Source: Tunturibacter gelidoferens
GTDB lineage: Bacteria; Acidobacteriota; Terriglobia; Terriglobales; Acidobacteriaceae
Assembly: GCF_040358255.1 (NCBI RefSeq)
Contig: NZ_CP132938.1
Span: forward strand, 1,922,001-1,986,000
Direction of reading: 5' to 3'
Length of the DNA stretch: 64,000 bases
This document shows positions 20,968-54,255 of this stretch, piece after piece; the stretch's first letter is position 1, and every line of letters begins with the position of its first letter. The translations under genes and the position numbers were made by a program. The notes below the pieces were generated by a model. That model had not been told where the DNA came from, did not search any database, and was given only the letters and a program-made list of their open reading frames with translations.

Positions 20968-21507
20968 TTATTTCGCCGGTTGCTTTTCCAGGATGTAGGG
21001 AATGGCGAAGCGGCCAATCTGAAGAATTGAGTTGTTGGAGGGGGGCCAGATGCGAAAAGATTCGACGCGCGAGCCCGTCGCTAGACGATGAGCCGTGACG
21101 GCGCCATGTTCCTCTCCAGTTGCTGCATCATAGAACCTAACGACGAGGGCATCTTCACTACGTTGCCATCCGATTACGTAGTTCCCGGCAGCAAGTGAGA
21201 TTTCTCCGAAGGTAATAGGTGATTGGACTAAAAGGAAATGAGAATATTTTCCGTCGGCTGAGTAACCGGCAGTGATGAGAACAACACCTGCGATGATTTT
21301 GCCATTTGAGTTAACGATGCCGGATGCGGTGCGCATCTCTGTTTCGATTCGCTCTTTTTCCACTGGAGCGCGTGCGGGCAAGACAGCCTGCAACTCTGAT
21401 GGAGTCGCTGTTCGCCAGGAAGACTTGGGTTGAGCGACGACTAAAGATGATGGAAAGAGAATAAGAAACAGAGCGAAGAGAGACGACTTCATCAAGTGGG
21501 ATGTCAT
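20968..21507 (-). CDS. Secreted protein closing the cytochrome/CRTAC1 run
   Basis: A 179-residue protein with a Sec signal (residues 1-25, SLFALFLILFPSSLVVAQ). The mature part is mostly beta: TATPSELQAVLPA, GVVLITAGYSADGKYSHFLLV, ISLAAGNYVIGWQRSEDALVVRFYD, then a helical/strand end. The order TAT-E-LQ-LPA ... AGYS-KY-FL ... L-AGxYxxG is also found in the 197-residue protein at 35480-36073, at the other end of the same gene run, so the two look like members of one family. The start overlaps the response-regulator stop codon by 4 bp. Function unknown; a secreted binding module fits the fold. Confidence 0.7.
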   Translation of the reverse strand: MTSHLMKSSLFALFLILFPSSLVVAQPKSSWRTATPSELQAVLPARAPVEKERIETEMRTASGIVNSNGKIIAGVVLITAGYSADGKYSHFLLVQSPITFGEISLAAGNYVIGWQRSEDALVVRFYDAATGEEHGAVTAHRLATGSRVESFRIWPPSNNSILQIGRFAIPYILEKQPAK

Positions 21508-22130
21508 TTGAGATGTACGATACCTCGTTGGAGAGCGACGGTTGCGGCGTGAGTGCGATCGCTGACGCCAAGTTTGCCGAGCAGACTATTGATGTGGGAC
21601 TTGACGGTAGCTTCGCTGATCTTTAGATCGGAGGCGATCTCCTTGTTTGCGCGGCCTGCCACGATGCGCTCCAGAACTCTGAGTTCGCGGTTGGTAAGGG
21701 CTTGAGTGCTCATTCTTTCGGCGAGCTTTTCTGCGATGGCGGGAGAGATGAGGGTTCTTCCGCTGTGAACTGCTTGAATGGTTGAGAGGAGTTCGTCGAC
21801 GGTCATTCCTTTGAGCAGATATGCTTTTGCGCCGGCCTGGAGGGAGCGGAAGATGTCTTCGTCTCCGTCGAAGGTGGTGAGCACAATGAATCTTGCGGCG
21901 GGATTGTCGGCGCGAATCTGCAGAATGGCATCGACTCCGCCGAGGTTTGGAAGCTGCAGATCCATCAGGGTGATGTCGGGTTGTAGAGTGCGGTAGAGTT
22001 CGATCGCCTGAATGCCGTCACTGGCTTGGCCTACCACTTCTATGTCGGGGATGATGTTGAGTAGCGCAACGAGTCCCTGACGAACGACGTGATGATCATC
22101 CACTACCAGGATACGAATACGTTCAGGCAT
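21504..22130 (-). CDS. NarL/LuxR-type response regulator
   Basis: A 208-residue regulator. The receiver domain has DDH at 11-13, the phospho-acceptor Asp57 in LMDLQLPN and the conserved Lys in YLLKG. The C-terminal LuxR-type helix-turn-helix (about residues 145-205) reads LTNRELRVLERIVAGRANKE and SEATVKSHINSLLGKL. It overlaps the end of the histidine kinase gene by 8 bp, so the two form one two-component system. The likely targets are the cytochrome/CRTAC1 genes upstream in the same run, or genes elsewhere; no binding site could be identified by eye. Confidence 0.92.
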   Translation of the reverse strand: MPERIRILVVDDHHVVRQGLVALLNIIPDIEVVGQASDGIQAIELYRTLQPDITLMDLQLPNLGGVDAILQIRADNPAARFIVLTTFDGDEDIFRSLQAGAKAYLLKGMTVDELLSTIQAVHSGRTLISPAIAEKLAERMSTQALTNRELRVLERIVAGRANKEIASDLKISEATVKSHINSLLGKLGVSDRTHAATVALQRGIVHLK

Positions 22131-25116
22131 TGATTGCTGCCTCTTTTCCTTCTGTGATGGGCGCTTCGAGCATGACTATGGTGCCGTTTGCCGGAGAGCT
22201 TTCAATCGTTAGTTGAGCATGAATCTGAGCCGCGCGTTCGTGCATGCCCTGGATGCCAAAGTGGCCGTTTGATGAAGGAGCTCTTTCCGATGTATCGAAT
22301 CCGCTGCCATTGTCGGAGATGCTTAATACTAATCGAGAGGAATCGTAGCGAAGATCGGCGGAGACCTGAGTTGCATTTGCGTGGCGGGCTGCGTTTGCCA
22401 AAGACTCCTGAGCGATGCGGAAGATCTCGTCTTCAAAGGGCTGGGGGAGAGGGCGGTAAGTGCCGGTTATGTTGAGGTGGGCGTTGAGTTTTTTTTGATT
22501 CCACTGTTCAGCCAGGTGGGCGAGACGGGTGGGCAAGCTGTTTGGCGCGGTAATAGCACGAAGATTCCAGATGCTTCGGCGAGCTTCGGCAAGGCCCTCT
22601 CGGACGTAGGCCCGAGTCTGGTCGATCTGTCTGCTCGCTGCGTCAGTTTGAGTGTGGGCGAGAAACTGGGAGATGAGCTCGAGCTGCACGGAGACGCCGA
22701 CGAAGCTTTGAGCTAGGGTGTCGTGAATTTCTCGTGCGACGCGAGTTCGCTCTGCGAGAACTGCCTGGAACCGTGATTGAAGAACGCGGACGCGGAGGCG
22801 GTAGAGGAGGAGCGCAGCGGCGGCGGCGAGACTAAGGATCAGCAGGAGAAACCAGAGTCTGCGATAGAAAGGAGGCTGCACAAAGAAGGCAATCTGCGCT
22901 CCGGTTTCATTCCATATGCCGTCGTTGTTGGCGGCTTGTACGCGAAAGCGATAGTGGCGCGGAGGGAGATTGGTATAGTAGGCGATGCGGCGGGAACCGG
23001 CTTCGGTCCATCGCTTATCGAAGCCATCGAGAATGTAACGATAGCGGACCTTTGCGGGAGCTAGGTAACTGAGAGCGGCGTATTCAAACGCGAAGCTGGT
23101 ACGGCCAGGAGTGATGTTTTGTTCGGTGCCTGTCAGGGGAATGTCCATACCATCTGCAGTGAAGCGTTCGATGACGATCGGGGGAGGGATGAGATTTTCT
23201 ACGAGGTGACTGGGATCGGTGACGGCGACCCCTTTGCGGGTGGCGAACCAGAGGAGCCCTTCCTTGGTCCTCCATGCAGCGGGATGACCCACGCCGATGG
23301 CTTCCTCGGTTGGCATGCCATCGGCGCGGCCATAAGAGACCGGATGAGGATCGCAGGTTGAAGACGAACCGCATTTGATGAGCGCTGAAACTGAGACGCG
23401 GGTGATGCCTCGACTGGAGCTTAACCAGAGGTTGCCGCGGTCGTCTTCGAGGATGGAGTCGATGGTTTGGGGCAGGTCGTCTCGCCGCAGTGGTGTAAAG
23501 CCGGCGGTGGTCATGACGCTGAGGCCAGCCCCTTTCGTTCCGATCCATAGTGTGCCGTGCGGATCTTCGGCGAGAGAGGTGATCGTGTCGCCAGAGAGTC
23601 CATCCTTTTTTGTGAAGGTTGTGATGTTGTCGCCCCGAAGGCGCGAGAGTCCATTGAGGGTGCCGATCCAAAGATCATGATCGGGGGCGTGAGATCTGAG
23701 AAGAGCGCCTACAAGATCGCTTCCGAGACCGTTCGATTGCGTTAGAGTGATGAACTGGTTGTTTTGCCAGTGAGCAAGGCCCCGACGCGTGCCGATCCAG
23801 AGTGAGCCGTCATCGTCCCTCATAAGAGACCGAATGAGATCGTCAGGTAGCCCGTCAGCAGAGGTGTAGGTCCGGATTTTCTTGCCCTTGACATAGTTCA
23901 GACCATCGGGCGTTCCGACCCACATGCTCCCGCCTTCTCCCGGAGCCAAAGCCAGGATGGTTTCGCTGACAAGGCCGGTTCGGGTGTAAAGATGTTGAAT
24001 GTTACCGGCTTGCCAGCGGTCGAGGCCGTCGCTGTTGGAGCCGAGCCATATTGCACCGTCGGTTGCCTGAGTGATGGCTGTGATCGGGTGATCGGAGAGG
24101 CCGGGAATGGTGCGGAAATTTTGGCGCCTCAGGATTTGGAGGCCGCTGGTTTCTGTTCCCACCCAGAGATTACTCTCTTCATCCTGCATGAGAGAGAGGA
24201 TACTGTTGGAGCCGAGGGCCGGTAAGACCTGTGGATGGCTGTCGACTTTGTCAAGCATGAAGAGCCCTTTGCTGGTTCCTATCCATAGTTGCCCTTGCGA
24301 GTCGGAGAGCAACGATTGTATGCGTGAAGCTGGAAGGTCGTGGCTTATCGACAGGGTTCGGCTTTGGTCACTTCGAAGGACTGCGATGCTGGTCCCGGTG
24401 CGCAACCAGAGGCTGTGGTCGGGGAAGAATCCGATGCCTTCAATATCCTTCGCCGTAGAGGTTGAGCCTAGCGGTTGTGGGAGAACTCGGCCATGGGAAT
24501 ATTGAAAGATTCCAGAGTTCGATGCGATCCAGACACTGCCGTCCTGAGCGGTGACTATTGCAGATGGATCGACGGAAGAGGGAAGGGGGATGATGTAGAA
24601 ACGCCTCCCGTCAAAGCTGCTGATGCCATCGGTCGTCAGGATCAGGATTAAGCCGTCGTCTGCCGCGGCTAGGTTGGTGATGCGACCGGTTGGTAATCCA
24701 TTCGCGATGGTGTAGCGGTGAAACTTTCCTGACGAGTATTGGAGGAGGCCGTTGGAGGTTGCAATCCAGAGTGGGCCGGTGTGACTTTGCGCAAAGCAGC
24801 AGATGTCATCGCTGGTAATTGCGGGAGTGGTTTCGTGGTTGAAGATTTTGAAGTCGATGCCGTTGAAGCGAGCCAGGCCGCCTTCGGTCGCAATCCAAAT
24901 GAAGCCGTCTGTGGATTGAAAGACCTGATGAACGCTGTTTTGAGGGAGGCCGTTCTCCGTCGACCACGATTGATGGCCGAAGTTGTTAGGGACTTGGGAG
25001 CTGGCGGTGAGAGAGAGAGCTGCGATTGCGCATGACATCCAGAAGAGGGAAGAGCGAAGGACGAGATGGAGGCGCGAAAGCAAGTTCATGCGGAGGTTCG
25101 ATGCGTTCGAAAGCAT
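22123..25116 (-). CDS. Histidine kinase with periplasmic regulator-propeller sensor
   Basis: About 997 residues from the ATG at 25116; another ATG at 25089 and an upstream GTG at 25197 are also possible. After a signal or anchor helix (about residues 20-40) come some 14 two-component-regulator-propeller repeats of the IWIATxxGLxxF type, a Y_Y_Y domain (RYRYILDGFDKRWTEAG, PRHYRFRVQAANNDG), one membrane helix (RLWFLLLILSLAAAAALLLY), a HisKA_3 dimerisation domain with phospho-acceptor His798 in REIHDTLAQ, and an ATPase domain (ESLANAARHANA, SDNGSGFD, GIQGMHERA). This HTCS-like plan, widespread in Bacteroidetes for glycan sensing, puts the ligand site in the periplasm. Ligand unknown; its neighbours point to a redox or propeller-protein substrate rather than a polysaccharide. 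Confidence 0.9.
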   Translation of the reverse strand: MLSNASNLRMNLLSRLHLVLRSSLFWMSCAIAALSLTASSQVPNNFGHQSWSTENGLPQNSVHQVFQSTDGFIWIATEGGLARFNGIDFKIFNHETTPAITSDDICCFAQSHTGPLWIATSNGLLQYSSGKFHRYTIANGLPTGRITNLAAADDGLILILTTDGISSFDGRRFYIIPLPSSVDPSAIVTAQDGSVWIASNSGIFQYSHGRVLPQPLGSTSTAKDIEGIGFFPDHSLWLRTGTSIAVLRSDQSRTLSISHDLPASRIQSLLSDSQGQLWIGTSKGLFMLDKVDSHPQVLPALGSNSILSLMQDEESNLWVGTETSGLQILRRQNFRTIPGLSDHPITAITQATDGAIWLGSNSDGLDRWQAGNIQHLYTRTGLVSETILALAPGEGGSMWVGTPDGLNYVKGKKIRTYTSADGLPDDLIRSLMRDDDGSLWIGTRRGLAHWQNNQFITLTQSNGLGSDLVGALLRSHAPDHDLWIGTLNGLSRLRGDNITTFTKKDGLSGDTITSLAEDPHGTLWIGTKGAGLSVMTTAGFTPLRRDDLPQTIDSILEDDRGNLWLSSSRGITRVSVSALIKCGSSSTCDPHPVSYGRADGMPTEEAIGVGHPAAWRTKEGLLWFATRKGVAVTDPSHLVENLIPPPIVIERFTADGMDIPLTGTEQNITPGRTSFAFEYAALSYLAPAKVRYRYILDGFDKRWTEAGSRRIAYYTNLPPRHYRFRVQAANNDGIWNETGAQIAFFVQPPFYRRLWFLLLILSLAAAAALLLYRLRVRVLQSRFQAVLAERTRVAREIHDTLAQSFVGVSVQLELISQFLAHTQTDAASRQIDQTRAYVREGLAEARRSIWNLRAITAPNSLPTRLAHLAEQWNQKKLNAHLNITGTYRPLPQPFEDEIFRIAQESLANAARHANATQVSADLRYDSSRLVLSISDNGSGFDTSERAPSSNGHFGIQGMHERAAQIHAQLTIESSPANGTIVMLEAPITEGKEAAINA

Positions 25117-25166
25117 GATGGCCGGAGTCGCTTCACTTCGGATGATACGTCTTCCTGATCCGGAGC

Positions 25167-25493
25167 TTATGGTTCTTTGGGCTTTTTGTCGCGACACGAG
25201 TGCAGGTAGGCAACAAGATCGTTCACCTCGGTCGCCTTTAGAATGTCGGCGAAGGATGGCATCTCACGTCCACCTTTGAGAATCTGCGTTCGGATCTGGG
25301 CTTTGTTAAGTGTGTGTCCTACTCCGGAAAGATCAGGCCCCTTGATTCCGCCTACCTTGCGTATTGTGTGGCAGTGTTGGCAGCCATTATCCACGAAGAT
25401 TGCTGCTCCGCGCTGCTTCGCGGACTCGGCGGATGCTGGCAGATAGTACGAAGCTGCGAGAGCCAGGATAAACGCTGACCGCAGCAAAGTCAT
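25167..25493 (-). CDS. Mono-heme c-type cytochrome
   Basis: A 108-residue exported protein with a signal peptide (residues 1-22, ending ASA). One heme site, CQHCH, lies near residue 38, and a candidate axial Met is in MPSFAD about 45 residues later. The class I cytochrome c pattern is complete (AAIFVDNGCQHCH, GPDLSGVG, MPSF, DLVAYLHS). It should be a small soluble periplasmic electron carrier. Its start overlaps the end of the five-heme cytochrome gene by 4 bp, so it is probably the direct electron partner of that protein. Confidence 0.9.
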   Translation of the reverse strand: MTLLRSAFILALAASYYLPASAESAKQRGAAIFVDNGCQHCHTIRKVGGIKGPDLSGVGHTLNKAQIRTQILKGGREMPSFADILKATEVNDLVAYLHSCRDKKPKEP

Positions 25494-27709
25494 TGAGCAG
25501 GTGTTCCGTTGTGTGCGGGCCCGGGGGCGAGGTCGGTGTGGGTGTGCCAGGGGACGGTCTCCGATGCGACTTCGTTGTGTTTACGCAGGAACTCGAGCGC
25601 GTAGGTGCTAGCGGTGGGATCATCCTTCTGATCGGCGAACATTGCGGCTTCGTGTGAAGCTTTTTCTTTCATCCCGAGACGGCGATAGACGATGGAGAGA
25701 ATGTAGTGGGCGGCGAGATCATCGGGGTCGATGGATTGGAGAGTCTCGTATTCAGCGCGGGCCTCATCATATTTTCGCTGTTGATAGAGAGAGAAGCCGA
25801 GCTCTCTGTGTGCGTCGCGGGAGTTTGGAAATTTTGTGATGACCTCGCGAAGATCAGCGATGGCTTCGTCGACCTGGCCCTGGTTCCGTTCGACGAGGGC
25901 GAGGTAGTACAGTGCGCGCGAGTTGTGAGGGCTGAGTGCAAGTGCTTTGTCGAGGCTGGCGCGGGAGGCCTCGTAGCGTTCCCACTGAAAGTTGGCGATT
26001 GCGATGTTGGTGAAGGCGTCGGCGTAGTCGGTGCGGAGCGTGGCGACCTGCTCGAACGCGCGGACGCTCTCCGCGTACTGTTGAGCGTCCAGCATGGCGA
26101 TGCCGTAGTTGTTCCATCGCATCCAGACTTTATTGTCCTGTGGGTCCACCGCGGGCGGGTTATCGCCTAGAGTGAAGATGCGCGTGCGCTCGGACATGGC
26201 AACGACGGGCATCTCGTAATGTTTGCCCATGCCGAAGTCCATGAAGTGCTGATCGAATCGGCGATAGTTGACCCATGCGGTGACGGTGAGGGGGCCGGTT
26301 GCGTCGGCGGGTACTTTGAATTGGTAGCGGACGAGCTGGGATCGGCCTGAAGCGATGGTGTTGTTGTAAGCCACAACGCGATTATCCCAGACCTGGTGGA
26401 GATCGTTGATGGTTCCTTTGGTGTTTACGAGGCGATTGGTGAAGCTGTGTGCGCGGGGGTCGAGGTCGCCATTGGGCTGGATCGCGCCGGAGTGCATCAG
26501 GGTGTGGCCGGAGGCGTCTTTGGCCTCGAATTCGACCCAGCTCTCGTACATGTCGCGCTGCTCGGGTACGTGGCTGTGTGCGATGCCTTTGTTCTGAATG
26601 ATGATGGTGGCGGTAAGGAGGTCTCCGGGGGAGACGGTGAAGCTGTCGTTGCCGAGAGGAGCGATGATCCTGCCTCCGTTTTTCTCGAGGCCGAAGATGT
26701 CGACGTTGAAGACGCCTGCTTTGAGGAAGGCTACGGTCTTCTCCATCTGGGTATCGTAGTTGTAGAACTTTGACAGAACGGTGTTAGCGCCTAACCATCG
26801 GTGAGAGGCCAGCTTGCCATTCTTGGCGCCCGAGTCGGAGCTGGTGAGATCTTCGCGGGTCATGTGGCAGGTCTGACAGGTGGAGACCTGATCTTTGACA
26901 TAGAAGGGAAGAGGCGACTGTTTGGCGAAGGAGGAGAGCTGCCACTCGTCGGAGAGGAAGATAGCGCGCTGCCATTTGTAGTCGTTCAGTTGTTTTGGAA
27001 GAGCGGCCTTGTGACACGCCGCGCAAAAGTTGCTGGTGCGATAGAAGTCCTTCATGACGGCTTTTGAGTGGCGGTCGAGATTTGCGAGAATCTCTTTGTC
27101 GGAGACCTCGCCGTAGATGGGTTGATTGTTCTCGTCGACCAGAACGGCGGGCTGTGCCAGAACGTAGCTGCCTGTGCCGCGAGCGTCGACTTTTTGGATG
27201 GAGTGGCAGACGGAGCAGGTGATTCCGTCTTCGTCGAACTTGCGATTTACTGGTGAGCCTTTGGTTAGCGCGCCCGAGACGAGGGCGATTGGGTTGTGGC
27301 AGCCTTCGCAGTGGCGGGTGTATTCAATGCCCTTTTCCGCGGTGAGCAGGTTTGTGTTTCTGATGTACCAGGGGGCGCGAAAGGAGTTGGCGTGAGCGGA
27401 CTGACGCCATTCGGCGTGCGCCTCCTGATGGCAGTGACTGCAGTATTTGGCTGTGGGGAAGGCTTTGGGGTTGATGAACTGGCCGGTGTCGGTGGTTGCA
27501 TTCGACGGGAGGAAGGGCTGATCGGCGCCGAATCTGAAGTTGTAATGTTGTTTGACTGATTCGGTGTAAACCTCACGTTGCGTGGGGGTAGTGACGGCAT
27601 CAGATGCGTGAGCGCCATCACTTTTCAAGGCCAGGAAAAAGGAGGCGATTGTGCCGCACAGCACGGTACAGAAGAAGATGCGACCGACCCGGCTGTAAGG
27701 CATTTTCAT
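25490..27709 (-). CDS. Five-heme cytochrome c with C-terminal TPR repeats
   Basis: About 739 residues from ATG 27709; other in-frame ATGs at 27703 and 27751 are possible. A signal or anchor segment covers about residues 8-35. Five CxxCH sites are seen: CSHCH, CEGCH, CSVCH, CAACH and CQTCH, all within about residues 85-290, in a cytochrome c554-like arrangement. A beta-rich middle region (about 320-500) and at least three TPR units (about 520-690, for example AFTNIAIANFQWERYEASRASLDKAL in part) follow. The heme part suggests periplasmic multi-electron transfer; the TPR part suggests docking to a partner. The coupled cytochrome c and the adjoining CRTAC1 proteins are the obvious candidates. Substrate unknown. 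Confidence 0.85.
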   Translation of the reverse strand: MKMPYSRVGRIFFCTVLCGTIASFFLALKSDGAHASDAVTTPTQREVYTESVKQHYNFRFGADQPFLPSNATTDTGQFINPKAFPTAKYCSHCHQEAHAEWRQSAHANSFRAPWYIRNTNLLTAEKGIEYTRHCEGCHNPIALVSGALTKGSPVNRKFDEDGITCSVCHSIQKVDARGTGSYVLAQPAVLVDENNQPIYGEVSDKEILANLDRHSKAVMKDFYRTSNFCAACHKAALPKQLNDYKWQRAIFLSDEWQLSSFAKQSPLPFYVKDQVSTCQTCHMTREDLTSSDSGAKNGKLASHRWLGANTVLSKFYNYDTQMEKTVAFLKAGVFNVDIFGLEKNGGRIIAPLGNDSFTVSPGDLLTATIIIQNKGIAHSHVPEQRDMYESWVEFEAKDASGHTLMHSGAIQPNGDLDPRAHSFTNRLVNTKGTINDLHQVWDNRVVAYNNTIASGRSQLVRYQFKVPADATGPLTVTAWVNYRRFDQHFMDFGMGKHYEMPVVAMSERTRIFTLGDNPPAVDPQDNKVWMRWNNYGIAMLDAQQYAESVRAFEQVATLRTDYADAFTNIAIANFQWERYEASRASLDKALALSPHNSRALYYLALVERNQGQVDEAIADLREVITKFPNSRDAHRELGFSLYQQRKYDEARAEYETLQSIDPDDLAAHYILSIVYRRLGMKEKASHEAAMFADQKDDPTASTYALEFLRKHNEVASETVPWHTHTDLAPGPAHNGTPAQ

Positions 27710-27811
27710 AGCAATCGTAAATTCTATTGAAGCGATAAGACTGTTAGCCATCGTCCTACGGGTCGGTAGAGATCTCAATCGAAAGGTTGAGTGGCGGGGA
27801 GATGGAAGCCG

Positions 27812-29698
27812 TTAGAATCTACTTCCTTTACCTTCTGTCAGGGTGACGATCTGGTCAACCTTGGTGACTGAGAACTTTTCTTTGGTTCCACTTGGCCAGT
27901 GAACTTCAACGGAGTCGATGGTTGCGATGTCGCCGAGGCCGAAGTGGACACGGGGGTCGTGGGTGGAGGCGAAGCTCCCTCCGGAGGTTACGTCTCCGCG
28001 TTGTTTCTGGCTTCCCGCGGTGAGATAGACCGTGGAGCCGATGGCGTCTCGAGGGCTCTTTGGACCGCCTATCAGTTTCAGTTCGATCCAATGATGATTG
28101 TCTCGCGAGACATTGCGGAGCAGTGCGGGGTGACTGTCCAAGGCGTTGATGACAACATCTAGTTTGCCGTCGTTGAAGAGGTCTCCGACGGCCATGCCAC
28201 GGCCGACGTACAGACTTGTGAGTGCTGTGCCTTCGACGGCGGGTTCGAGGTCGAATTTTTTGCCGTCGATGTTACGGAAGAGGAGCGGGCGTTGCGCCCA
28301 GCTGGTTCCCCAGGTTGTGTGGTCGACCTGCGGGTAGACGTGGCCGTTCGCGATGATGAGATCCTTCCATCCATCATTGTCGAAGTCAAAGAACGCTGTG
28401 CCCCATCCCAGGAATGGAATTGTAGGTTCGGCAACTCCCATCTGGTAGCTGATGTCGGTGAAGTTGGCGTCGCCATCGTTGCGGTAGAGCGGGTTGTAGT
28501 CATCCGAAAATGTTGTGTTGTAGATATCGAGCAGGCCGTTGTTTCGATAGTCTCCAATTGCGATACCCATCGAGGCTGTTTCGCGGCCATTCTCGTTGAG
28601 CGCGTATCCGGAGGCGTAGCTTGCGTCTTCGAAGGTGCCGTCGCCTTTGTTGATGTAAAGATAATTTGGAGTCGAATCGTTTGCGACAAGAAGGTCCGGC
28701 TTGCCGTCGTTGTTGATATCGACGAAGACGGAGGAGAAACCGTAGTAGCCGTTCTTGTCGGAGACTCCGGCCTTTTCGCTCACGTCCGTGAAGGTGCCGT
28801 CGCCGTTGTTATGGAAGAGATGGTCTGGTTCTCCCTTGAGGCCTCGCGGGCCGCACATGACTTTTTCACCTCGAAACTGGCAGAAGCTATAGGAGACCTC
28901 TTTACCGCCAGATCCGGGCTGATTCGCGAGGTCGTAGTGAACGTAGCCAGGAACGAAGAGATCCAGCCGGCCGTCGCCATCGTAGTCGCCCCAGGTGGCG
29001 CCAGTGGACCAGTTGCCAAGAGTGACTCCCGCTTTCTCGGCGACGTCAGTGAAGGTTCCGTCGTGATTGTTGTGATAGAGGCGGTTCTTGCCGAAGTTGG
29101 TGACGTTGATGTCGGGCCAGCCGTCGTTGTCGTAGTCGGCTATGGCGACGCCGATTCCCCAGCGGTCATTGGTGACGTGTGCCTTCGCGGCGACGTCGGT
29201 GAAAGTTCCGTCGTGGTTGTTGTGGAAGAGCGCGGCGTGGGGCGGTATCGCTTTGCCGCTCATGGCGTCGTAGGTTGAACCGTTGACGAGATAGATGTCG
29301 AGCCAGCCGTCGTTGTCATAGTCGATAAGTCCGACGCCAGATCCGTTGGTTTCGATGATGAATTTTTTTTCGGGAGTTCCCATGGTGTGGGTCCATGAGG
29401 TTAGTCCGGCTTTTCCGGCGATGTCCTGAAAGATGATCGGACCGCTCTTTACAAACCCCCCGGCCGTGATGGGTCTCTTCTCTTCGTCGAGGACTGCGGG
29501 GTGGGCTCCACCGGTGTTGGCTCCCCCCATTGCTGACGCCTGGCCGCCCTCTTGAGGCTTATCAGATTGTGTGTCGGTCGAGTGGGAGTTTGGAGTCGTA
29601 GATTGCGCGAACGATGCCGCAGCATTGCAGATGAGCGTTGAGGAGAGAGCAGCGGCGGCAAACAGGGAACCGAAACGAGTTCGATGAGGAAGGGTCAC
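27812..29698 (-). CDS. CRTAC1-type propeller protein C (FG-GAP, ASPIC/UnbV)
   Basis: 628 residues from a GTG at 29698, chosen because AAGGA lies 7 nt upstream and a Sec signal peptide follows at once (RTRFGSLFAAAALSSTLI...). FG-GAP/VCBS-like repeats span about residues 90-500, each with a calcium-type loop such as DYDNDGWLDIYLVNG or DYDGDGRLDLFVPG, giving a beta-propeller. The C-terminal ASPIC/UnbV domain (about 515-620) has RDAIGSTVYL, RVHFGLGDI and VEVHWPSGTKE. Members are extracytoplasmic; no enzymatic role is established. It is the third propeller gene in a row and lies 102 bp upstream of the five-heme cytochrome. Confidence 0.88.
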   Translation of the reverse strand: MTLPHRTRFGSLFAAAALSSTLICNAAASFAQSTTPNSHSTDTQSDKPQEGGQASAMGGANTGGAHPAVLDEEKRPITAGGFVKSGPIIFQDIAGKAGLTSWTHTMGTPEKKFIIETNGSGVGLIDYDNDGWLDIYLVNGSTYDAMSGKAIPPHAALFHNNHDGTFTDVAAKAHVTNDRWGIGVAIADYDNDGWPDINVTNFGKNRLYHNNHDGTFTDVAEKAGVTLGNWSTGATWGDYDGDGRLDLFVPGYVHYDLANQPGSGGKEVSYSFCQFRGEKVMCGPRGLKGEPDHLFHNNGDGTFTDVSEKAGVSDKNGYYGFSSVFVDINNDGKPDLLVANDSTPNYLYINKGDGTFEDASYASGYALNENGRETASMGIAIGDYRNNGLLDIYNTTFSDDYNPLYRNDGDANFTDISYQMGVAEPTIPFLGWGTAFFDFDNDGWKDLIIANGHVYPQVDHTTWGTSWAQRPLLFRNIDGKKFDLEPAVEGTALTSLYVGRGMAVGDLFNDGKLDVVINALDSHPALLRNVSRDNHHWIELKLIGGPKSPRDAIGSTVYLTAGSQKQRGDVTSGGSFASTHDPRVHFGLGDIATIDSVEVHWPSGTKEKFSVTKVDQIVTLTEGKGSRF

Positions 29699-29839
29699 TG
29701 GTGTGTCCTTGTAGTTCGAATTACGAGTTCGCAGGAGGGAGGTGCAGGTATTCATCGATTTGCCGGAAGGTTGCAGCCTCATGTTTACCATACGATCCCG
29801 TAGACGTGATTGAGAGTGTTGTTCGCACTGACGCTATTG

Positions 29840-31579
29840 TTAATTTGCTGATGACGAGGATCGGCCCTTTCCTTCGGTGAGGTCGAGGATGCGATCGACT
29901 GAAGTGGGAGGGTCGAAGAGTTCCATCTGACCGTTGGGCCAGCGAATTTGAATGCTCGTGAGGTGCGTTTCCTGGCCGAGACCGAAGTGGAGGCGGAGAT
30001 CGCTTGAGGAGTTATAGCTGGAACCGTCGCGAACCTCGTCGACCCAGATGCGTTTTGCAGATTTCATGGTGACGCGAGCGCCAATGGCATCGCGGTTGGA
30101 GGATGTCCCGATGAGATGAAGGCCGAGCCAGTGATTCTGATTTTTCGCGAGGTTGACCAGAAGCATTGGTCGATCGCTGAGGTTGTTGATCACAGCTTCG
30201 AGACGCCCGTCGTTGAAGAGATCCGCGATTGCAAGTCCGCGGCTGGAGCGTGGATCGACGAGTCCGGGGCCGGAGGTCTTGCTGACGTCGCGGAACTTTC
30301 CGTTGCCTAGATTGTTATAGAGGAAGCGGGGTTCGCGGTAGGAGGAGCCCAGTTTGGCGGAGTCCACCTCAGGATAGACATGGCCGTTCGCAATAAGAAG
30401 GTCTGGCCACCCGTCGTTGTCGACGTCGGCGAACATAGCTCCCCAGCCTAGAGCCTCGGTGTTGATGCCGAGTCCAGCGGCGAAGGTCATGTCGGTATAA
30501 GTGCCGTCGCCATTGTTGCGATAGAGGGTGGAGGTGTCGTCGGAGAAGTTGGTTTTGAAGAGGTCGAGTCTGCCGTCGCCGTCGTAGTCGGCTGCCGTGG
30601 ATCCCATGCCGGCCTGTTCGCGACCGTCTTCGTTGAAGGCTACACCGGCGTCGGCGGCAGTGTCCTTGAAGGTTCCGTCGTGGTTGTTTCGATAGAGGAT
30701 GGCAGGAGTGGAGTCGCAGGCGACGTAGAGGTCGGGCCAGCCGTCGTCGTCGTAGTCGAGCGTGGTGATGGAGAAGCAGTAGTGGCCTTGTGTTCGCTCG
30801 AATCCACTGGGCTTGCTTACGTCTGCAAACTTTCCGCCGCCGAGGTTGTGGTAGAGGATGTTCGGTGCGCTCTCGAGACCGCGCGGGCCGCACATGACGG
30901 GCACTCCCTTCCAGATGCATCCTGAGGTTTGGCCGGGTGTTGGGGTGCGAGCGAGGTCGAAGTGCACGTAGTTGGCGACGGCCAGGTCCAGCTTGCCGTC
31001 GCGATCGTAGTCGATGAAGGCACAGCCGGTGCCCCACTCCTTGCCTGTACCGGCGACGCCTGCCTGCTCCGCTACCTCCTTGAATGTTCCATTGCCCTGG
31101 TTGTGGAAGAGGCGGTTTTTGCCGTAGCCGGTGACGTAGATGTCGTCGAATCCATCGTTGTCGTAGTCTCCAACGCATGCTCCCTGCCCCCATCCAGTGG
31201 AGACGAGGCCTGCCTTTACGGTGACGTCGGTGAAGGTTCCGTCGTGATTGTTGTGGAAGAGGTGGTTGGTGGGTTTTGCTTGTCCGGCTGCGGTGGTTGT
31301 GCCAGGTAAGTTGGTGCCGTTGACAAGGAAGATGTCCGGCCATCCGTCACGGTCGTAGTCGAGGATGGCAACTCCTGAGCCTGTGGCTTCGATGATGTAG
31401 CGTTTAGATTCGACGCTCCCGTTCACGTCGCGAACGGTGATACCGGCCTTGAGTGCGACATCTACAAACCAGGCTGGCGGCGGATGATCGGGTGTTGGAA
31501 GGTAGGGCTGCTGCTCTCCGAAGGCCGTCGTCACCAGGAGCAGGACGACGGCGGTTCGAAGAAGGAATCGAATCTTCAT
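29840..31579 (-). CDS. CRTAC1-type propeller protein B (FG-GAP, ASPIC/UnbV)
   Basis: 579 residues from the ATG at 31579, which overlaps the stop codon of propeller gene A by 4 bp. A Sec signal peptide is clear (MKIRFLLRTAVVLLLVTTAFG). Seven or so FG-GAP-type blades (about residues 40-440) carry loops such as DYDRDGWPDIFLVNG and DYDDDGWPDLYVACD. The ASPIC/UnbV domain (about 470-560) has RDAIGARVTMKS, RLHFGLGQE and IQIRWPNGQME. It has the same plan as its two neighbours but a different signal type and sequence, so the three are old paralogues rather than recent copies. Confidence 0.88.
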   Translation of the reverse strand: MKIRFLLRTAVVLLLVTTAFGEQQPYLPTPDHPPPAWFVDVALKAGITVRDVNGSVESKRYIIEATGSGVAILDYDRDGWPDIFLVNGTNLPGTTTAAGQAKPTNHLFHNNHDGTFTDVTVKAGLVSTGWGQGACVGDYDNDGFDDIYVTGYGKNRLFHNQGNGTFKEVAEQAGVAGTGKEWGTGCAFIDYDRDGKLDLAVANYVHFDLARTPTPGQTSGCIWKGVPVMCGPRGLESAPNILYHNLGGGKFADVSKPSGFERTQGHYCFSITTLDYDDDGWPDLYVACDSTPAILYRNNHDGTFKDTAADAGVAFNEDGREQAGMGSTAADYDGDGRLDLFKTNFSDDTSTLYRNNGDGTYTDMTFAAGLGINTEALGWGAMFADVDNDGWPDLLIANGHVYPEVDSAKLGSSYREPRFLYNNLGNGKFRDVSKTSGPGLVDPRSSRGLAIADLFNDGRLEAVINNLSDRPMLLVNLAKNQNHWLGLHLIGTSSNRDAIGARVTMKSAKRIWVDEVRDGSSYNSSSDLRLHFGLGQETHLTSIQIRWPNGQMELFDPPTSVDRILDLTEGKGRSSSSAN

Positions 31580-33465
31580 GGCTTTGGGGTCGTAGCTGGA
31601 TTGATCAATGCTTTGGACTGCGGTGAGGTGCCCATGGCAATCGTCTTCAGAATCTTTCCACCTTCCTGAATGACGTAAAGATGGTTTGCTGCGAGGTCGA
31701 TAAGTTTGTCTGTCGTGCCGGATGGCCACTTGATTTCGACTGAATCTGCTTTGACAGAGTGGTCGAGGCCGAAGTGGATGCGTAGATCGTTCTGCGAGTA
31801 GTAGCTGCCGCCGCTTCGAACTTCGTCGATCTGAATAAAGGGTTTGGCGTTTTCTGGTGTTGGAGTTGTGACGCTGATCTTCGCGCCGATGCCAGAGCGA
31901 TTCGACTTGGTGCCGACGGTGCGGATCTTGATCCAGTTGCGGCCCGTCGTCGATTCGCAGCGGAGCAGCTGGGGGAGGCTGTTGATGCAGTTGACGACGA
32001 CGTCCACTACGCCGTCGTTGTCGTAGTCGCCGAACGCGCAACCTCTGCCGGGGGCGGGTGTTGTGATGCCGGGTCCTCCTTGCGCGGTCACCTCTTCGAA
32101 CTGTCCGTTGCGCAGATTGCGGTAGAGGTACTTGTGTTCGGCGTAAGGCGCGTCGATGGCGGTTCCGTCGACCTCAGGATAGACGTGTCCGTTACAGATG
32201 AAGATGTCAGGCCAGCCGTCGTTGTCCATGTCGAAGAAGCCGACGCCCCAACCGAGGTAGCGGGTGTTGACGCCTAGTCCAGACATGTAGGTATGGTCGT
32301 CGAAGTTCCCGTCGCCGAGATTGACGTACAGCGAATCGGTGTCGCCGGCGAAGTTTGTTTTGACAATGTCGAAGCGGCCGTCGCGATTGAAATCGCCAAT
32401 AGATACGCCCATACCGGCCTGCGGCTTGCCGTCAGGAGAGTATGCGATGCCTGCCTCGATGGCTACATCTTTGAAGGTGCCGTCTTTTTGGTTTTGGTAG
32501 AAGGTGGCGGCGGTGGAGTCGTTGGCGACGTAGATGTCGGGCCAGCCGTCGCCGTCGATGTCGGAGACAGCTACGGAGAGTCCGTAGGTGCCGATGGTGT
32601 CCCACATGCCGGCTTTTTGTGAGACGTCGGTGAAGGTGCCGTCGCCGTTGTTGCGATAGAGAATGTTCTTGCCGCCCTGGAGACCGGGTGGGCCACAGGC
32701 TACTTGAATTCCCTTGTAGGCGCAGCCGGCGGCTTCGGGGAGGGGTGCTGTCTTGATGTCGAAGTCGATGTAGTTCGCGACAAAGAGGTCGAGATGGCCG
32801 TCGCGATCGTAATCGATAAAGGCACAGCCGGAGTTCCAGCGCGTCTTAGATTGGAGGAGGCCAGCCTTCTCTGTAACGTCGGTGAAGGTGCCGTTGCCAT
32901 TGTTGCGATAGAGAACATTCTGCCCGTAGTAGCTGACGAAGAGGTCGTTCCATCCGTCGTTGTTGTAGTCACCGACACAACAGCCCTGTCCCCATCCGGC
33001 GCGACCGACCCCGGCTTTGAGGGTGACGTCAGTGAAGGTGCCGTCACGATTGTTCTTGAAGAGACGGGAGATGGGTTCCTGACCTTTGGGGAAGCCTTCC
33101 AGTCGAGTGCCGTTGACAAGGAAGATATCGATCCAGTCATCGTGATCGTAGTCGTAGAAGGCTACGCCGCAGCCGGTGGTTTCAAGCAGATATCGATTTT
33201 TGTGTTCGCCGCCGTATATCGTTTTTGCGTTGAGTCCGGACTGACGTGCGACGTCGATGAAGCTGATGCCGAGAGGAGTGCCTGCGACGGGGGAGGGGAG
33301 TCCTTTAGGGGCGGCACGGGGTACGGCGTCGTAAGTGGGGCGCGATCCCATCTGTTGGGAGGGCTGAGAGGTCTGAGGCGCGGCCAGAGCCAGAACGTCG
33401 TCAAGCGAAAGAACCAGAGCAGTGGTGGAAAGCGATGTAAGAAAGTTACGGCGAGACCAATTCAA
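31576..33465 (-). CDS. CRTAC1-type propeller protein A, Tat-exported
   Basis: 629 residues from a TTG at 33465; AGGAG stands 7 nt before it, and the protein then begins with a twin-arginine signal (NWSRRNFLTSLSTTALVLSL). The twin Arg suggests folding, perhaps with a metal, before export. FG-GAP blades span about residues 65-480 (DYDHDDWIDIFLVNG, DYDRDGHLDLFVANY, DMDNDGWPDIFICNG), and the ASPIC/UnbV domain about 505-600 (SGIGAKISV, RIHFGLDHS, VEIKWPSGTTD). It is very similar to the protein at 54256-56151, including the Tat signal and the ACGPPGLxGGxNILY stretch. The TPR gene precedes it in both places. Function unknown. Confidence 0.9.
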   Translation of the reverse strand: MNWSRRNFLTSLSTTALVLSLDDVLALAAPQTSQPSQQMGSRPTYDAVPRAAPKGLPSPVAGTPLGISFIDVARQSGLNAKTIYGGEHKNRYLLETTGCGVAFYDYDHDDWIDIFLVNGTRLEGFPKGQEPISRLFKNNRDGTFTDVTLKAGVGRAGWGQGCCVGDYNNDGWNDLFVSYYGQNVLYRNNGNGTFTDVTEKAGLLQSKTRWNSGCAFIDYDRDGHLDLFVANYIDFDIKTAPLPEAAGCAYKGIQVACGPPGLQGGKNILYRNNGDGTFTDVSQKAGMWDTIGTYGLSVAVSDIDGDGWPDIYVANDSTAATFYQNQKDGTFKDVAIEAGIAYSPDGKPQAGMGVSIGDFNRDGRFDIVKTNFAGDTDSLYVNLGDGNFDDHTYMSGLGVNTRYLGWGVGFFDMDNDGWPDIFICNGHVYPEVDGTAIDAPYAEHKYLYRNLRNGQFEEVTAQGGPGITTPAPGRGCAFGDYDNDGVVDVVVNCINSLPQLLRCESTTGRNWIKIRTVGTKSNRSGIGAKISVTTPTPENAKPFIQIDEVRSGGSYYSQNDLRIHFGLDHSVKADSVEIKWPSGTTDKLIDLAANHLYVIQEGGKILKTIAMGTSPQSKALINPATTPKP

Positions 33466-33633
33466 ATGGACGCTCCTAAGGCAATGGCCAGGCACTGGCG
33501 TTCGACGCTCTCTTCGCCGTGGTAATTGTAATCACAAAATTGGAACGGGTTGAAAGAGTCTTGAAATCGGTACACGGTGCAGCGAAGCCTAGCCTCCAGA
33601 GAAAAAGGCTCAGTTGCATCTGTGGTACCGGCT

Positions 33634-35463
33634 CTATGGATGAGCGGAAGGAACCTCACCAGCGGAGGAAGTATTCGCGAGAAGCTTCTTGGCTTTCTGC
33701 CGCTCAAGCGCAGCATCGGCGCTTCGTCCCTGTCTGTCGAGAGCGTCGGCCAACGCGGAGTGTGCCTCGCTGTAGTTTGGGTCTGCTTCGACTGCGGTTT
33801 GCAATTGAAATATCGCATCCGCGGTCTTGCCTTGCTTGAGGAGTGCCTTGCCGCTGTCGAGGGCAAAGTTGGCACGTTGTCGACTGACAGCGATACGGCT
33901 GAGGGATGCGGCTTTTTTGCGTTCGGCTGCTGCGCCTTCAGAGTCTCCCTGCTGGCTGAGGATGGCGGCGAGGCTGATGTGTGGACTGGGCTGGTTGGGT
34001 AGAAGATCGATGGCGCGTCGCAAGGCTGATGCGGCCTTTTCGGGATCGTTATTGTTTTTGTAGACATTGCCAAGGAGCGCCCATGCCTCACCGTTGTTGG
34101 GGCGTAGCGCGGTGGCCTTCTCGAGTTCGGCCTGAGATTCTGCGAAACGTCCGAGCTGCATGTAGAGTACGCCGAGCGTGTAGGGCGGATCAGGCAACGT
34201 GGGATCGAGTTGCTCCGCGCGAAGGAACTCCGCGACCGCTGCGGTTGGATCGTCTTTCAACTTCAGGGCCAGTCCAAGATCGTAGTGGAGATGTGAGTTG
34301 TCAGGTTCGATCAGGAGACCTGCACGAAACTGCTCGATGGCGTGGTTGAGATCGCTCTGTTGAAGATACGCAACGCCGAGGTCTTGGCGCAGGGTCGGAT
34401 TTTTCTCATCCAGTGCAAGGGCTCGCAGGTAGAAGATGATGGCTCCCTTTGCGTCGCCTGTCTGTACGAGAGCGAGTCCGAGGTTCGTGAGTACGGCAGA
34501 GTCCTGGGGTCGTGCGGCGGCGACCTGTTGAAAGAGAGGTATAGCTTCACGAGGATTGTCATTCGCTTGCAGGGTGAGGGCGAGTTCGTATTTGATATCC
34601 GTCGACGCAGGATCAACGGCCATCGCATGTCGCAGTACCGTGATGGCCGCGTCTTCCTGATCGCTTGCAAGTAAGGCACGACCAAGTTGCAGTGCATACT
34701 CGACATTTTCTTTGGACAGGTTATTCGCTTTGGTAAGCTCGCTGACCGCGTTTGCGAGGTCCCCTTGATTTAGAAAGACGGAGCCAAGGTGATAGTGCGC
34801 GGCTGCGAGTGATGGCTCTAGTGAGATAGCACGTTGAAACTGGACCGTGGCGTCACTATAGGTCTGTTGTTGTGCGAGGATCGTGCCTAGACTATCGTGC
34901 AGAGCCGCGTTGTCAGGCGAATTGTAGAGAGCCGACTCCAGCTGCTTTTGCGCGGTGGCTGGCTCTCCCGTTGCCGCGAGGGCGGCGGCGTAGGCGATGG
35001 AGGCTTGGGGCGTGAGCGCCTGTGACGCATCGCTCTTTGCTCCGTCGAGGAGTTGAAACATCTGCATTGATTTCTGATATTCGCGAAGCTGAGAGTAGGT
35101 GATCGCCAAGTTGAGTGAGGCATCAGAGTTCTGCGGATCGAGTTTGTGGGCCAGTTCGAGTTGGTCCACCGCGTATGCGAGATTTCCCTCAGCAAGTAGT
35201 ACAGTTCCGAAGGCACTGTGGCCGGCGGCAACCTCGGGTGCAAGTTTTACGACTTTCGCAAATTGGATGTGTGCTGAAAGTAGGTCGTTCTGACGATATG
35301 CTGCGGAGCCGGCACGAAACGCTTCTTCGGCTTCCTTTACTCTGTCGGGTGGGGCGGTCTGTGAAGAAGCTGCCGGCGTGGTGGCGGTTTGTGCCCGCGC
35401 TAGCGGAATGATCGTTGCGAGGACGCTGCACAGCAGAAGCGAAGGTGTCTGGAGGAGTTGCAT
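33634..35463 (-). CDS. Secreted TPR-repeat protein (paralogue of 52334-54112)
   Basis: 609 residues from the ATG at 35463. A Sec signal (MQLLQTPSLLLCSVLATIIPLARAQ) is followed by a Ser/Thr/Pro-rich linker and about 14 TPR units (residues 45-590), for example AGHSAFGTVLLAEGNLAYAV and AHYHLGSVFLNQGDLANAV. TPR superhelices bind peptides or protein partners; being exported, this one would act in the periplasm or at the surface. It lies upstream of propeller gene A with a 168-bp gap. The protein at 52334-54112 has the same layout and similar repeats (LHYDLGLALKLKDD versus LHYNLGLAFKLQDD), also next to a Tat-exported propeller gene. This shared pairing suggests that the two proteins work together. 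Confidence 0.88.
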   Translation of the reverse strand: MQLLQTPSLLLCSVLATIIPLARAQTATTPAASSQTAPPDRVKEAEEAFRAGSAAYRQNDLLSAHIQFAKVVKLAPEVAAGHSAFGTVLLAEGNLAYAVDQLELAHKLDPQNSDASLNLAITYSQLREYQKSMQMFQLLDGAKSDASQALTPQASIAYAAALAATGEPATAQKQLESALYNSPDNAALHDSLGTILAQQQTYSDATVQFQRAISLEPSLAAAHYHLGSVFLNQGDLANAVSELTKANNLSKENVEYALQLGRALLASDQEDAAITVLRHAMAVDPASTDIKYELALTLQANDNPREAIPLFQQVAAARPQDSAVLTNLGLALVQTGDAKGAIIFYLRALALDEKNPTLRQDLGVAYLQQSDLNHAIEQFRAGLLIEPDNSHLHYDLGLALKLKDDPTAAVAEFLRAEQLDPTLPDPPYTLGVLYMQLGRFAESQAELEKATALRPNNGEAWALLGNVYKNNNDPEKAASALRRAIDLLPNQPSPHISLAAILSQQGDSEGAAAERKKAASLSRIAVSRQRANFALDSGKALLKQGKTADAIFQLQTAVEADPNYSEAHSALADALDRQGRSADAALERQKAKKLLANTSSAGEVPSAHP

Positions 35464-35479
35464 CTCAGCCCGATTGTAA

Positions 35480-36073
35480 TCATGGATGGAGGGGAGTGGG
35501 GTTGCTGGTCTGAGCTGGGGCCTGCGCAAAGACGGCATAGTCGCGGCCGATGTAGAGTCGGTATCCGGTGCTGTCGGGCCCTGGCAAGATTTGCAGAGGA
35601 GTTGGACGGCGGAGGGTGGCGTCTTTGGCGGAGGGGACGGAGAAGAGATCGTGGCCTCCGATGTCCATGACGACGAAGGTACTGCCAGCCACGAAGCCGC
35701 AGCCATATGCTCCTGGCTGGAGCTGATGACCTTGGATGTCGATGGATGCCTCAGTGATTAGATAGGCCTGATATTTCTCCTGGACCGAACTTGAGTAGCC
35801 TGCCGTATCCACCAAGGCGACTAGGAGAAGCGCGTCCTTCGTGAATTGCACTCCCCCAGAGTTTCTGGCTTGAATGGGCGCGCTCTGACCTCGAAAAAAG
35901 ACCGTGGCAGGCAGGAACTGCGCTGCTTCTGTGGCGGTCAGAACTCTCGTTCCGATCACAGGGGTCGAATCGTTCTGATATGGGCCAAGGGCTGGAGGCG
36001 CTGCGTGTAAAGAAGGAGCTGCGATGCTAAACAGCAGGATGGAGCGCAACGATTTACGGAGCATGAGCGGCAT
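35480..36073 (-). CDS. Secreted protein heading the CRTAC1/cytochrome run
   Basis: 197 residues from ATG 36073 (an ATG at 36064 is equally possible), with a Sec signal (LRSILLFSIAAPSLHAA). The mature part contains TRVLTATEAAQFLPATVFF, LLLVALVDTAGYSSSVQEKY, IDIQGHQLQPGAYGCGFVAGSTFVVMD and a strand-rich end. The order of motifs matches the 179-residue protein at 20968-21507. It ends 16 bp before the TPR start codon, so it is probably the first gene of the run, transcribed from the 78-bp gap shared with the divergent glycosidase gene. Function unknown. Confidence 0.65.
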   Translation of the reverse strand: MPLMLRKSLRSILLFSIAAPSLHAAPPALGPYQNDSTPVIGTRVLTATEAAQFLPATVFFRGQSAPIQARNSGGVQFTKDALLLVALVDTAGYSSSVQEKYQAYLITEASIDIQGHQLQPGAYGCGFVAGSTFVVMDIGGHDLFSVPSAKDATLRRPTPLQILPGPDSTGYRLYIGRDYAVFAQAPAQTSNPTPLHP

Positions 36074-36151
36074 CTTATCAGTCGCGTCGGACTTCGTCGT
36101 GAGAGAGCGTGCCAGCATGTAGACTGGTGATCTTTTGGAGAGGGAGACACC

Positions 36152-50943: not shown

Positions 50944-50960
50944 ACCTAGCAGGGATTTAA

Positions 50961-50992
50961 AAAAGGGGGAGCTACGGCTCTCCCTTTTGTTT
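50961..50992 (+). terminator. Rho-independent terminator after the TonB receptor
   Basis: AAAAGGGGGAGC and GCTCTCCCTTTT form a 12-bp stem with one mismatch around TACG, followed by GTTT, 17 bp after the stop codon. Confidence 0.85.
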
Positions 50993-51017
50993 CGGTTACA
51001 CTCGGTCCAGATCTTCT

Positions 51018-52115: not shown

Positions 52116-52333
52116 AGTTGGAGCATTCTTGTCAGGAACAATGCCGAGGCGGGTTTCGACGCGGACGGGTCTTCGTCTCTCGCACTGCATGGTGGGTAGG
52201 AGGCGAGTCTGGTCCGTCTTTGATTATCAATACGGAGCCGCTCGGCGTTCGAAGATCATCCGATCAGGTAGTTCGGCATTGGCGAAGGACAGGGGAGTCT
52301 TCGAACAGATAAGATCGGGGTCGCTACAATCCC

Positions 52334-54112: not shown

Positions 54113-54255
54113 TCGCAAGCCAGGAAATCGGCACAGAGCAGATATCAATAGCGACGAACAGCTTGTGTACAGTGGATTGAAGCGTTCGCTATAATTCAGC
54201 GCACAGAGGAAGGGATGACTCACTGAGTCTCACCTTTCATGGGATCCGGGCAACC

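Follow-up and report, generated by a model that had tools for sequence, protein, structure and literature searches.

Pentaheme cytochromes of the PHC family have been described from cable bacteria (sPHC and lPHC) and from Geobacter (ExtKL and Gsu2801); the small members are reported to be structural homologues of Thermochromatium tepidum cytochrome c552, and the family is counted with the cytochromes whose hemes are pentacoordinate and which may be catalytic (PMC11976967). CRTAC1-type propellers appear beside multiheme proteins in another setting, in that hydrazine-synthase-like genes of non-anammox bacteria flank a CRTAC1 gene and some homologues carry c554 domains (PMC12758564). We analysed a stretch of 64,000 nucleotides of Tunturibacter gelidoferens (contig NZ_CP132938.1, positions 1,922,001 to 1,986,000; below, the window), in which a run of ten genes encodes a pentaheme cytochrome, CYT5, directly preceded by a CRTAC1-type propeller, ASPIC3, and followed by a mono-heme cytochrome, CYT1. 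A TPR-bearing PHC-like cytochrome partnered with a CRTAC1 protein is an undescribed partnership: no description of the CYT5-CRTAC1 pair was found in the literature searched. The main text on Granulicella WH15 contains no mention of ASPIC, CRTAC1, cytochrome, tetratricopeptide or FG-GAP (PMC7074687), and in Solibacter an ASPIC/UnbV gene stands among the listed paralogues (PMC3174227).

CYT5 resembles the PHC family in being exported, in its five c-heme motifs and in its fold match to the structure 5ze8, but differs in its C-terminal TPR repeats and its CRTAC1 neighbour gene. Unlike extKL, it has no outer-membrane porin gene beside it. Cable-bacteria PHC members carry truncated hemoglobin domains (PMC11976967), where CYT5 has TPR repeats instead. 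The run's propellers share FG-GAP repeats and the UnbV_ASPIC domain with human CRTAC1 (9etn); in contrast to it, they are bacterial, exported, placed in a cytochrome operon and present as three or four paralogues per locus. As in the hydrazine-synthase-like clusters (PMC12758564), a CRTAC1 gene lies between or beside genes for exported multiheme proteins, whereas no propeller domain was found by Pfam in the run's cytochromes. The Pfam scan recognised no hydrazine-synthase-like subunit in the run, hydrazine synthase models not being part of the search. The Sus-like polysaccharide utilisation loci and hybrid two-component sensors of Bacteroidota offer a further comparison. The Reg_prop and Y_Y_Y architecture of the run's sensor histidine kinase (HK) is like theirs, as are the barrel and hydrolase genes nearby; unlike the hybrid sensors, HK, which has HisKA_3, and its response regulator (RR), which is of NarL type, are two proteins, and Pfam found no SusD or barrel family among the ten run proteins.

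Pairing of CYT5 with CRTAC1-type propellers

The three genes at the centre of the analysis are the following.

27812..29791, minus strand: ASPIC3, a CRTAC1-type propeller directly 5' of CYT5, with FG-GAP and UnbV_ASPIC (Pfam); the conserved partner.
25490..27709, minus strand: CYT5, a predicted pentaheme PHC-like cytochrome with C-terminal TPR repeats; Pfam Cytochrome_C554 and TPR; alternative start of the open reading frame (ORF) at 27778.
25167..25493, minus strand: CYT1, a mono-heme c-type cytochrome; Pfam Cytochrome_CBB3/Cytochrom_C.

Gene order around CYT5 was read in 40 loci of the family (set A), 80 named loci (set B, the best 80 of 332 relatives) and 40 phylum-wide loci (set C). For sets A and C, the choice from longer match lists rested on score, contig position and family spread and preceded any view of the neighbours. 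Eight loci common to A and B were counted once, which left 152 distinct CYT5 loci. An ASPIC gene on the same strand was found within 600 bp of CYT5 in 25/40 loci of set A, 35/80 of set B and 27/40 of set C, and the 27 adjacent loci of set C span 18 family codes. Among the distinct loci, ASPIC was directly adjacent and on the same strand in 86 of 152 (48 upstream, 38 downstream), the order of the pair being inverted between groups; another 20 had ASPIC within 6 kb and nine were cut by a contig end. A same-strand adjacent CYT1 was present at 8/40, 53/80 and 2/40 loci of sets A, B and C, respectively.

The host genome (5.58 Mb, G000), whose closest named records are those of Edaphobacter lichenicola, contains two further CYT5 paralogues (66% and 53% identity). 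ASPIC lies directly upstream on the same strand at all three CYT5 copies, with nine ASPIC hits genome-wide, and random placement of three genes gave three such ASPIC neighbours in none of 1,000,000 trials. Across the phylum, CYT5 was detected at E 1e-20 in 91 of 297 genomes. When 40 genomes were searched for both genes, ASPIC was present in all ten with CYT5, and CYT5 in none of the 23 without ASPIC (Fisher 2.3e-5, uncorrected, like the Fisher test given below, for relatedness of the genomes). The association of propeller and cytochrome is not accidental, because this core is conserved far beyond the present genome. The sequence-only reading had proposed a joint redox system for the whole run, in which the propellers would bind a substrate or metal, electrons would leave through the two cytochromes and the kinase would sense the state of the system. 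This was supported in part: a propeller/five-heme core, often with the mono-heme cytochrome, is conserved, and the ten genes as one unit found no support.

Viewed from the propeller side, 196 ASPIC matches were obtained in 17 genomes; the distance to a CYT5 match is 5 kb or less for at least 14 of them, six of which belong to this genome. CYT5 occurred in none of 40 ASPIC loci hand-picked from the matches listed, one of which (L246) held a seven-heme gene; at least eight ASPIC matches of other genomes lie within 5 kb of CYT5, and none of these is among the 40. Several of the hand-picked loci encode heme-less proteins whose match to the CYT5 profile is confined to its TPR part.

A quick tree was built from 71 CRTAC1 proteins: a random 40 of 60 CYT5-linked ones, 28 of 35 unlinked ones and the window's three, of which ASPIC1 and ASPIC2, within the run but not adjacent to CYT5, were labelled unlinked. 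With 21 forks left open, the linked label required six changes, at least four of them forced by well-supported branches, against a mean of 23 in shuffles. On this tree CYT5 has partners from several CRTAC1 lineages; repeated loss of the linkage is an alternative.

The cytochrome and its propeller partners

Five CXXCH motifs were counted in the sequence of CYT5. All 81 homologues possess five heme motifs, the first being CX4CH in 11; this variant belongs to the distant proteins of L194, L196, L209, L217-L223 and L071. Four histidines outside the motifs (129, 237, 326 and 401 in P0005 numbering) are invariant in 81/81, and His444 is found in 71/81. Because there are five motifs and only four further invariant histidines, one heme may be without a conserved distal ligand, a lead that comes from the histidine counts. 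An AlphaFold2 model built from 78 sequences (mean predicted local distance difference test score, pLDDT, 85.7; predicted template-modelling score, pTM, 0.86) consists of a heme part, a strand-rich part (residues 299-482) and TPR helices. An immunoglobulin-like domain counts among the features of PHC proteins; in the CYT5 model, strands are concentrated in this middle part, which separates hemes and TPR. Its best Foldseek match was 5ze8, Thermochromatium tepidum c552, at E 3e-9, with a root-mean-square deviation of 6.7, 15% identity and template-modelling scores of 0.62 by target length and 0.37 by query length. The CYT5 profile, compared with Protein Data Bank sequences, matched 5ze8 alone (E 2.5e-5), and NCBIfam ExtKL gave a weak match under the cut-off (E 2e-4). 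5ze8 is absent among the VIA matches listed for CYT5, a list filled by TPR chains. On its five motifs and the modelled PHC fold, CYT5 is classed as a putative PHC-like pentaheme cytochrome with added TPR repeats.

Other heme or redox genes were seen near CYT5 or ASPIC elsewhere. In an E. lichenicola record (L102:4038-5708), ASPIC has as its neighbour a seven-heme c3/c7-like protein with weak TPR matches, which may be a second heme partner of CRTAC1; its relatives occur in L034, L058, L062 and L268. In the same record the ASPIC gene beside the second CYT5 copy is in two pieces (L102:7838-9364). Downstream of the CYT5 of the 53% type, or of its ASPIC, we observed a second small exported family, with four cysteines and the motifs CPWLN.ATA, IGNEA, VRDR and EQVAG (L035, L053-L056, L059-L062 and L064-L067); its 15-member profile matches 16/40 loci of set A. 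A cupredoxin/COX2-like gene, possibly encoding an alternative electron carrier, follows CYT5 shortly in L055 (7972-8457) and L057, with a match in L067.

FG-GAP and UnbV_ASPIC were found over the Pfam cut-off in the run's three propellers and in a fourth one (54256-56151), and ASPIC3 matched the human CRTAC1 structure 9etn at E 1.7e-13. Most positions that reach 90% conservation in CYT5-linked CRTAC1s belong to the repeats and hold acidic residues or Asn (Asp, Asn), and the unlinked ones share them; conservation of H484 was 0.93 in linked and 0.66 in unlinked propellers. FG-GAP loops with Asp and Asn bind calcium. A redox or metal site in the propellers was considered and rejected, as the conserved residues include nothing redox-like and no cysteine passes the filter. 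By eye, however, the window's three propellers show a pair of cysteines. From this pattern of conservation, a role in scaffolding or ligand binding seems likelier than catalysis. Twin-arginine export does not mark the linked propellers either: a simple pattern found it in 9/90 linked and 4/42 unlinked proteins.

TPR and FG-GAP repeats also occur together in single proteins of 1,159-1,210 residues (3/3 tested), with no UnbV_ASPIC match at 1e-6. We infer that CRTAC1-like and TPR proteins generally cooperate and that CYT5 is a heme-carrying version of the TPR partner. An open frame of 7,796 codons with FG-GAP-like matches was noticed in the host genome (G000:C2 near 662352-663152).

The ten-gene run, its modules and its surroundings

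The ten ORFs lie on the minus strand from 36118 (or an internal ATG at 36073) to 20968, in the transcription order SEC1, TPR, ASPIC1, ASPIC2, ASPIC3, CYT5, CYT1, HK, RR, SEC2. The sequence-only reading had described a single-strand run of ten genes with these domains, and the ORFs, the Pfam matches and the five CXXCH motifs of CYT5 bore it out. The other features are as follows.

35480..36073, minus strand: SEC1, a small exported protein without a Pfam/NCBIfam entry, homologous to SEC2; alternative ORF start at 36118.
33634..35463, minus strand: TPR protein, exported and heme-less; an internal ATG before the leader was taken as start; Pfam TPR.
31576..33495, minus strand: ASPIC1, a CRTAC1-type propeller with FG-GAP and UnbV_ASPIC (Pfam) and a twin-arginine leader.
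29840..31579, minus strand: ASPIC2, a CRTAC1-type propeller with FG-GAP and UnbV_ASPIC (Pfam) and a Sec-type leader.
22123..25197, minus strand: HK, a sensor histidine kinase; Pfam Reg_prop (5 stretches), Y_Y_Y, HisKA_3 and HATPase_c.
21504..22130, minus strand: RR, a NarL-type response regulator; Pfam Response_reg and GerE.
20968..21507, minus strand: SEC2, a small exported protein, third gene of the HK-RR-SEC2 triplet.
36074..36151, no strand: intergenic stretch between the divergent starts of the run and a hydrolase gene; conserved blocks, possible shared promoter region.
36152..38668, plus strand: MGH1-like glycoside hydrolase gene, divergent from the run, kept in L074-L076 and L264; a possible partner outside the core.

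Four-bp overlaps join ASPIC2 to ASPIC1 (31576-31579), CYT1 to CYT5 (25490-25493) and SEC2 to RR (21504-21507). RR and HK overlap by 8 bp, and the remaining gaps do not exceed 138 bp with the preferred starts. With the GTG at 25197 as its start, HK would share 31 bp with CYT1; the true start probably lies downstream of it. The three 4-bp overlaps and the short gaps are compatible with a single predicted transcript. Leaders were assessed by eye rather than by a signal-peptide program, and in this way the twin-arginine motif SRRNFL was seen in ASPIC1 only among the three propellers. The ORFs come from a greedy script, which small genes may escape.

Three E. lichenicola records (L074-L076) keep the complete run in unchanged order, flanked as here by the divergent hydrolase gene on its upstream side and by the next gene on its downstream side. 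In congener L264 nine of the ten genes are kept, and CYT1 (68% identity) directly follows ASPIC3; in congeners L265 and L266, HK-RR-SEC2 comes after ASPIC3 and no cytochrome gene intervenes. Outside the genus the recombining pieces are ASPIC3-CYT5-CYT1, HK-RR-SEC2 (often divergent), ASPIC1-ASPIC2 (convergent to the core in several loci) and SEC1 at varied sites. In L037, from another genus, ASPIC3-CYT5-CYT1, SEC1, HK-RR-SEC2, a TPR gene and an ASPIC2-like gene lie inside 13 kb. That the ten genes act as one functional unit was rejected beyond the genus, since the modules recombine and L264, L265 and L266 are without one or both cytochromes.

SEC1 and SEC2 are mutually homologous (24% identity, E 6e-6), and neither matched a Pfam or NCBIfam family at E 0.01. 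With a joint profile, the SEC family was detected in 28 of 297 phylum genomes, and 22 of these 28 also have CYT5 (Fisher 5e-8). The SEC2 model (pLDDT 89.7) is predicted to be all-beta with one short helix. It gave no Foldseek match at E <=0.001 and a best VIA Z of 4.3; this absence of a match in the model searches would be no proof of a new fold, and no function can be inferred from it. Of the 26 distinct CYT5 loci that have SEC2, 25 place RR and HK no more than three genes away from it. A strict tie of the triplet to ASPIC3 was rejected: of nine triplets, drawn from 20 SEC loci chosen for lying away from CYT5, five have ASPIC beside them (L264, with CYT1 between, L265, L266, L281 and L282) and four do not (L267, L269, where ASPIC is several genes away, L271 and L274). 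L267, L271 and L274 have HK-RR-SEC2 with neither ASPIC3 nor cytochromes. HK-RR-SEC2 is a separate module, which occurs with or without ASPIC3 or cytochromes. It comprises the parts of a Reg_prop two-component system, namely a Reg_prop and Y_Y_Y sensor, a histidine kinase and a partner regulator. In known cases the ligand of such sensors is often a sugar, and by analogy the architecture of HK suggests ligand sensing.

The starts of the run and of the divergent MGH1-like hydrolase gene are 33 or 78 bp apart, and the blocks of the stretch between them are conserved in five Edaphobacter sequences, including the window. The hydrolase gene is present in 18/41 family genomes, in single copy where present, with matches in 9 of the 120 loci of sets A and B (a single record stands behind L041 and L126). 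Further along the window lie two alpha-amylases, a GntR/LacI-type regulator, an OMP_b-brl_4/TonB-like barrel (47299-50943, about 11 kb from the run), TPR genes and the fourth CRTAC1 gene. The barrel, two TPR genes and this CRTAC1 gene, whose product is 69% identical to ASPIC1, form a heme-less set by the alpha-amylase genes at 47299-56151 on the plus strand. Among the non-core neighbours of 40 chosen loci (102 of 231 scanned), OMP_b-brl_4 was matched six times, LacI-type/periplasmic-binding proteins five, TPR five and GH43 three, figures that stand without a random-region baseline. The neighbour genes and the SEC distribution suggest a link of the run to glucan use. A link to nitrogen assimilation was rejected, as the HemD-GAF-ANTAR protein concerned (L086; matches in L077 and L080) adjoins an MGH1/GH63-like hydrolase and not a nitrate enzyme. 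In L037 (3522-6805) a GMC oxidoreductase gene, a gluconate 2-dehydrogenase subunit 3 gene and a TIM-barrel gene lie upstream of ASPIC3-CYT5, a lead for a periplasmic sugar oxidase that would supply the electrons. On the other side of the run, 13610-20284 encodes a protein of 2,224 residues that combines NHL repeats with many Big_3_5 Ig-like domains (15 stretches), and the small gene after it is kept beside the run in L074-L076.

Explanations and significance

The explanation that we prefer, and to which we assign about an even chance, is that ASPIC3-CYT5-CYT1 makes up an exported PHC-type electron-transfer module, docked through TPR repeats on CRTAC1 and placed under a separate, ligand-sensing HK-RR-SEC2. 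The added TPR domain would dock CYT5 onto ASPIC3, which would act as a scaffold or ligand-binding partner, and CYT1 would shuttle electrons between CYT5 and the respiratory chain. HK-RR-SEC2, separately mobile, would sense a periplasmic ligand, possibly derived from a glycan, and control the propeller genes, together with the cytochrome genes at loci that have them. SEC1-TPR-ASPIC1-ASPIC2 would be a broadly similar CRTAC1-TPR module without hemes. Several observations weigh against this explanation. No ASPIC lies within 6 kb in 37 of the 152 distinct CYT5 loci, and 17 of these 37 belong to a subgroup with nuo (complex I) genes divergent from CYT5. Stops interrupt the ASPIC gene beside the second CYT5 copy of the host genome (G000:C2:3196868-3198479, L034), congener L264 is without CYT5 yet retains CYT1, propellers and kinase, and the majority of CRTAC1 genes have no such cytochrome nearby. 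As for the nuo-linked CYT5 genes, a NuoB match was obtained at 5/40 loci of set A and 23/80 of set B, and those without adjacent ASPIC include L118, L124, L127, L136 and L142.

Alternatively, the run could be a local pile-up in which one regulator controls genes for exported proteins, and co-regulation or common descent, rather than joint function, has made cytochrome and CRTAC1 neighbours. The recombination of modules outside the genus, the clean loss that CYT5 can undergo and the position of most CRTAC1 genes away from such a cytochrome would fit; the pairing, however, is far above chance, occurs in both orders and across 18 family codes and involves several CRTAC1 lineages, so that we regard a pile-up as very unlikely. 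It is also unlikely, in our estimate, that the run is a glucan-use locus. In this reading oligosaccharides would be captured by CRTAC1-TPR proteins and outer-membrane barrels and sensed by the Reg_prop kinase, and the cytochromes would do no more than take up electrons released when sugars are oxidised in the periplasm. The divergent hydrolase gene with its short conserved intergenic stretch points that way, as do the alpha-amylases, regulator, barrel, TPR genes and fourth CRTAC1 gene of the window. Barrel matches occurred in 23 of the 57 named non-nuo CYT5 loci, against 0.22 per locus expected from the count in this genome (P 0.001), but in the phylum set at 1-3/40 loci only. A GMC oxidoreductase with gluconate-dehydrogenase subunit 3 (L037) and a 3-keto-disaccharide hydrolase (L096) also point that way; neighbouring hydrolases vary by locus, however, and GMC matches were found at 3/180 loci and the 3-keto hydrolase at 1/180, again without a random-region baseline. 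Finally, CYT5 itself could be a terminal reductase, for example of nitrite, hydroxylamine, peroxide or an oxyanion, acting at one open heme with CRTAC1 as structural partner. This would agree with the excess of heme motifs over histidines invariant in 81/81 homologues, His444 being kept in 71/81, and with the placing of cable-bacteria PHC members among potentially catalytic pentacoordinate-heme cytochromes (PMC11976967). His444 may nevertheless serve as ligand in most members, and no substrate-specific neighbour genes were found; we consider a reductase rather improbable.

A wider proposal can be made, which we hold to be possible but doubtful: CRTAC1 proteins and TPR-bearing multiheme cytochromes would form an unrecognised class of exported redox complexes in Acidobacteriota, built on a general CRTAC1-based platform. 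CRTAC1 would hold a substrate or surface anchor, the TPR repeats would connect, and different heme modules (PHC, seven-heme c3/c7-like and, elsewhere, possibly hydrazine-synthase-like) would be plugged in.

CRTAC1 proteins span bacteria to humans, and no assigned bacterial function was found for them in the literature searched. The pairing with a pentaheme cytochrome, conserved in many families of Acidobacteriota, provides a testable handle, as it predicts a physical complex and a redox phenotype. Acidobacteriota of soil are usually considered aerobic; the pairing would bring PHC-type cytochromes, familiar from electroactive anaerobes, into soil bacteria, and would give a role to one exported gene set among the many that lack an assignment in this abundant phylum.

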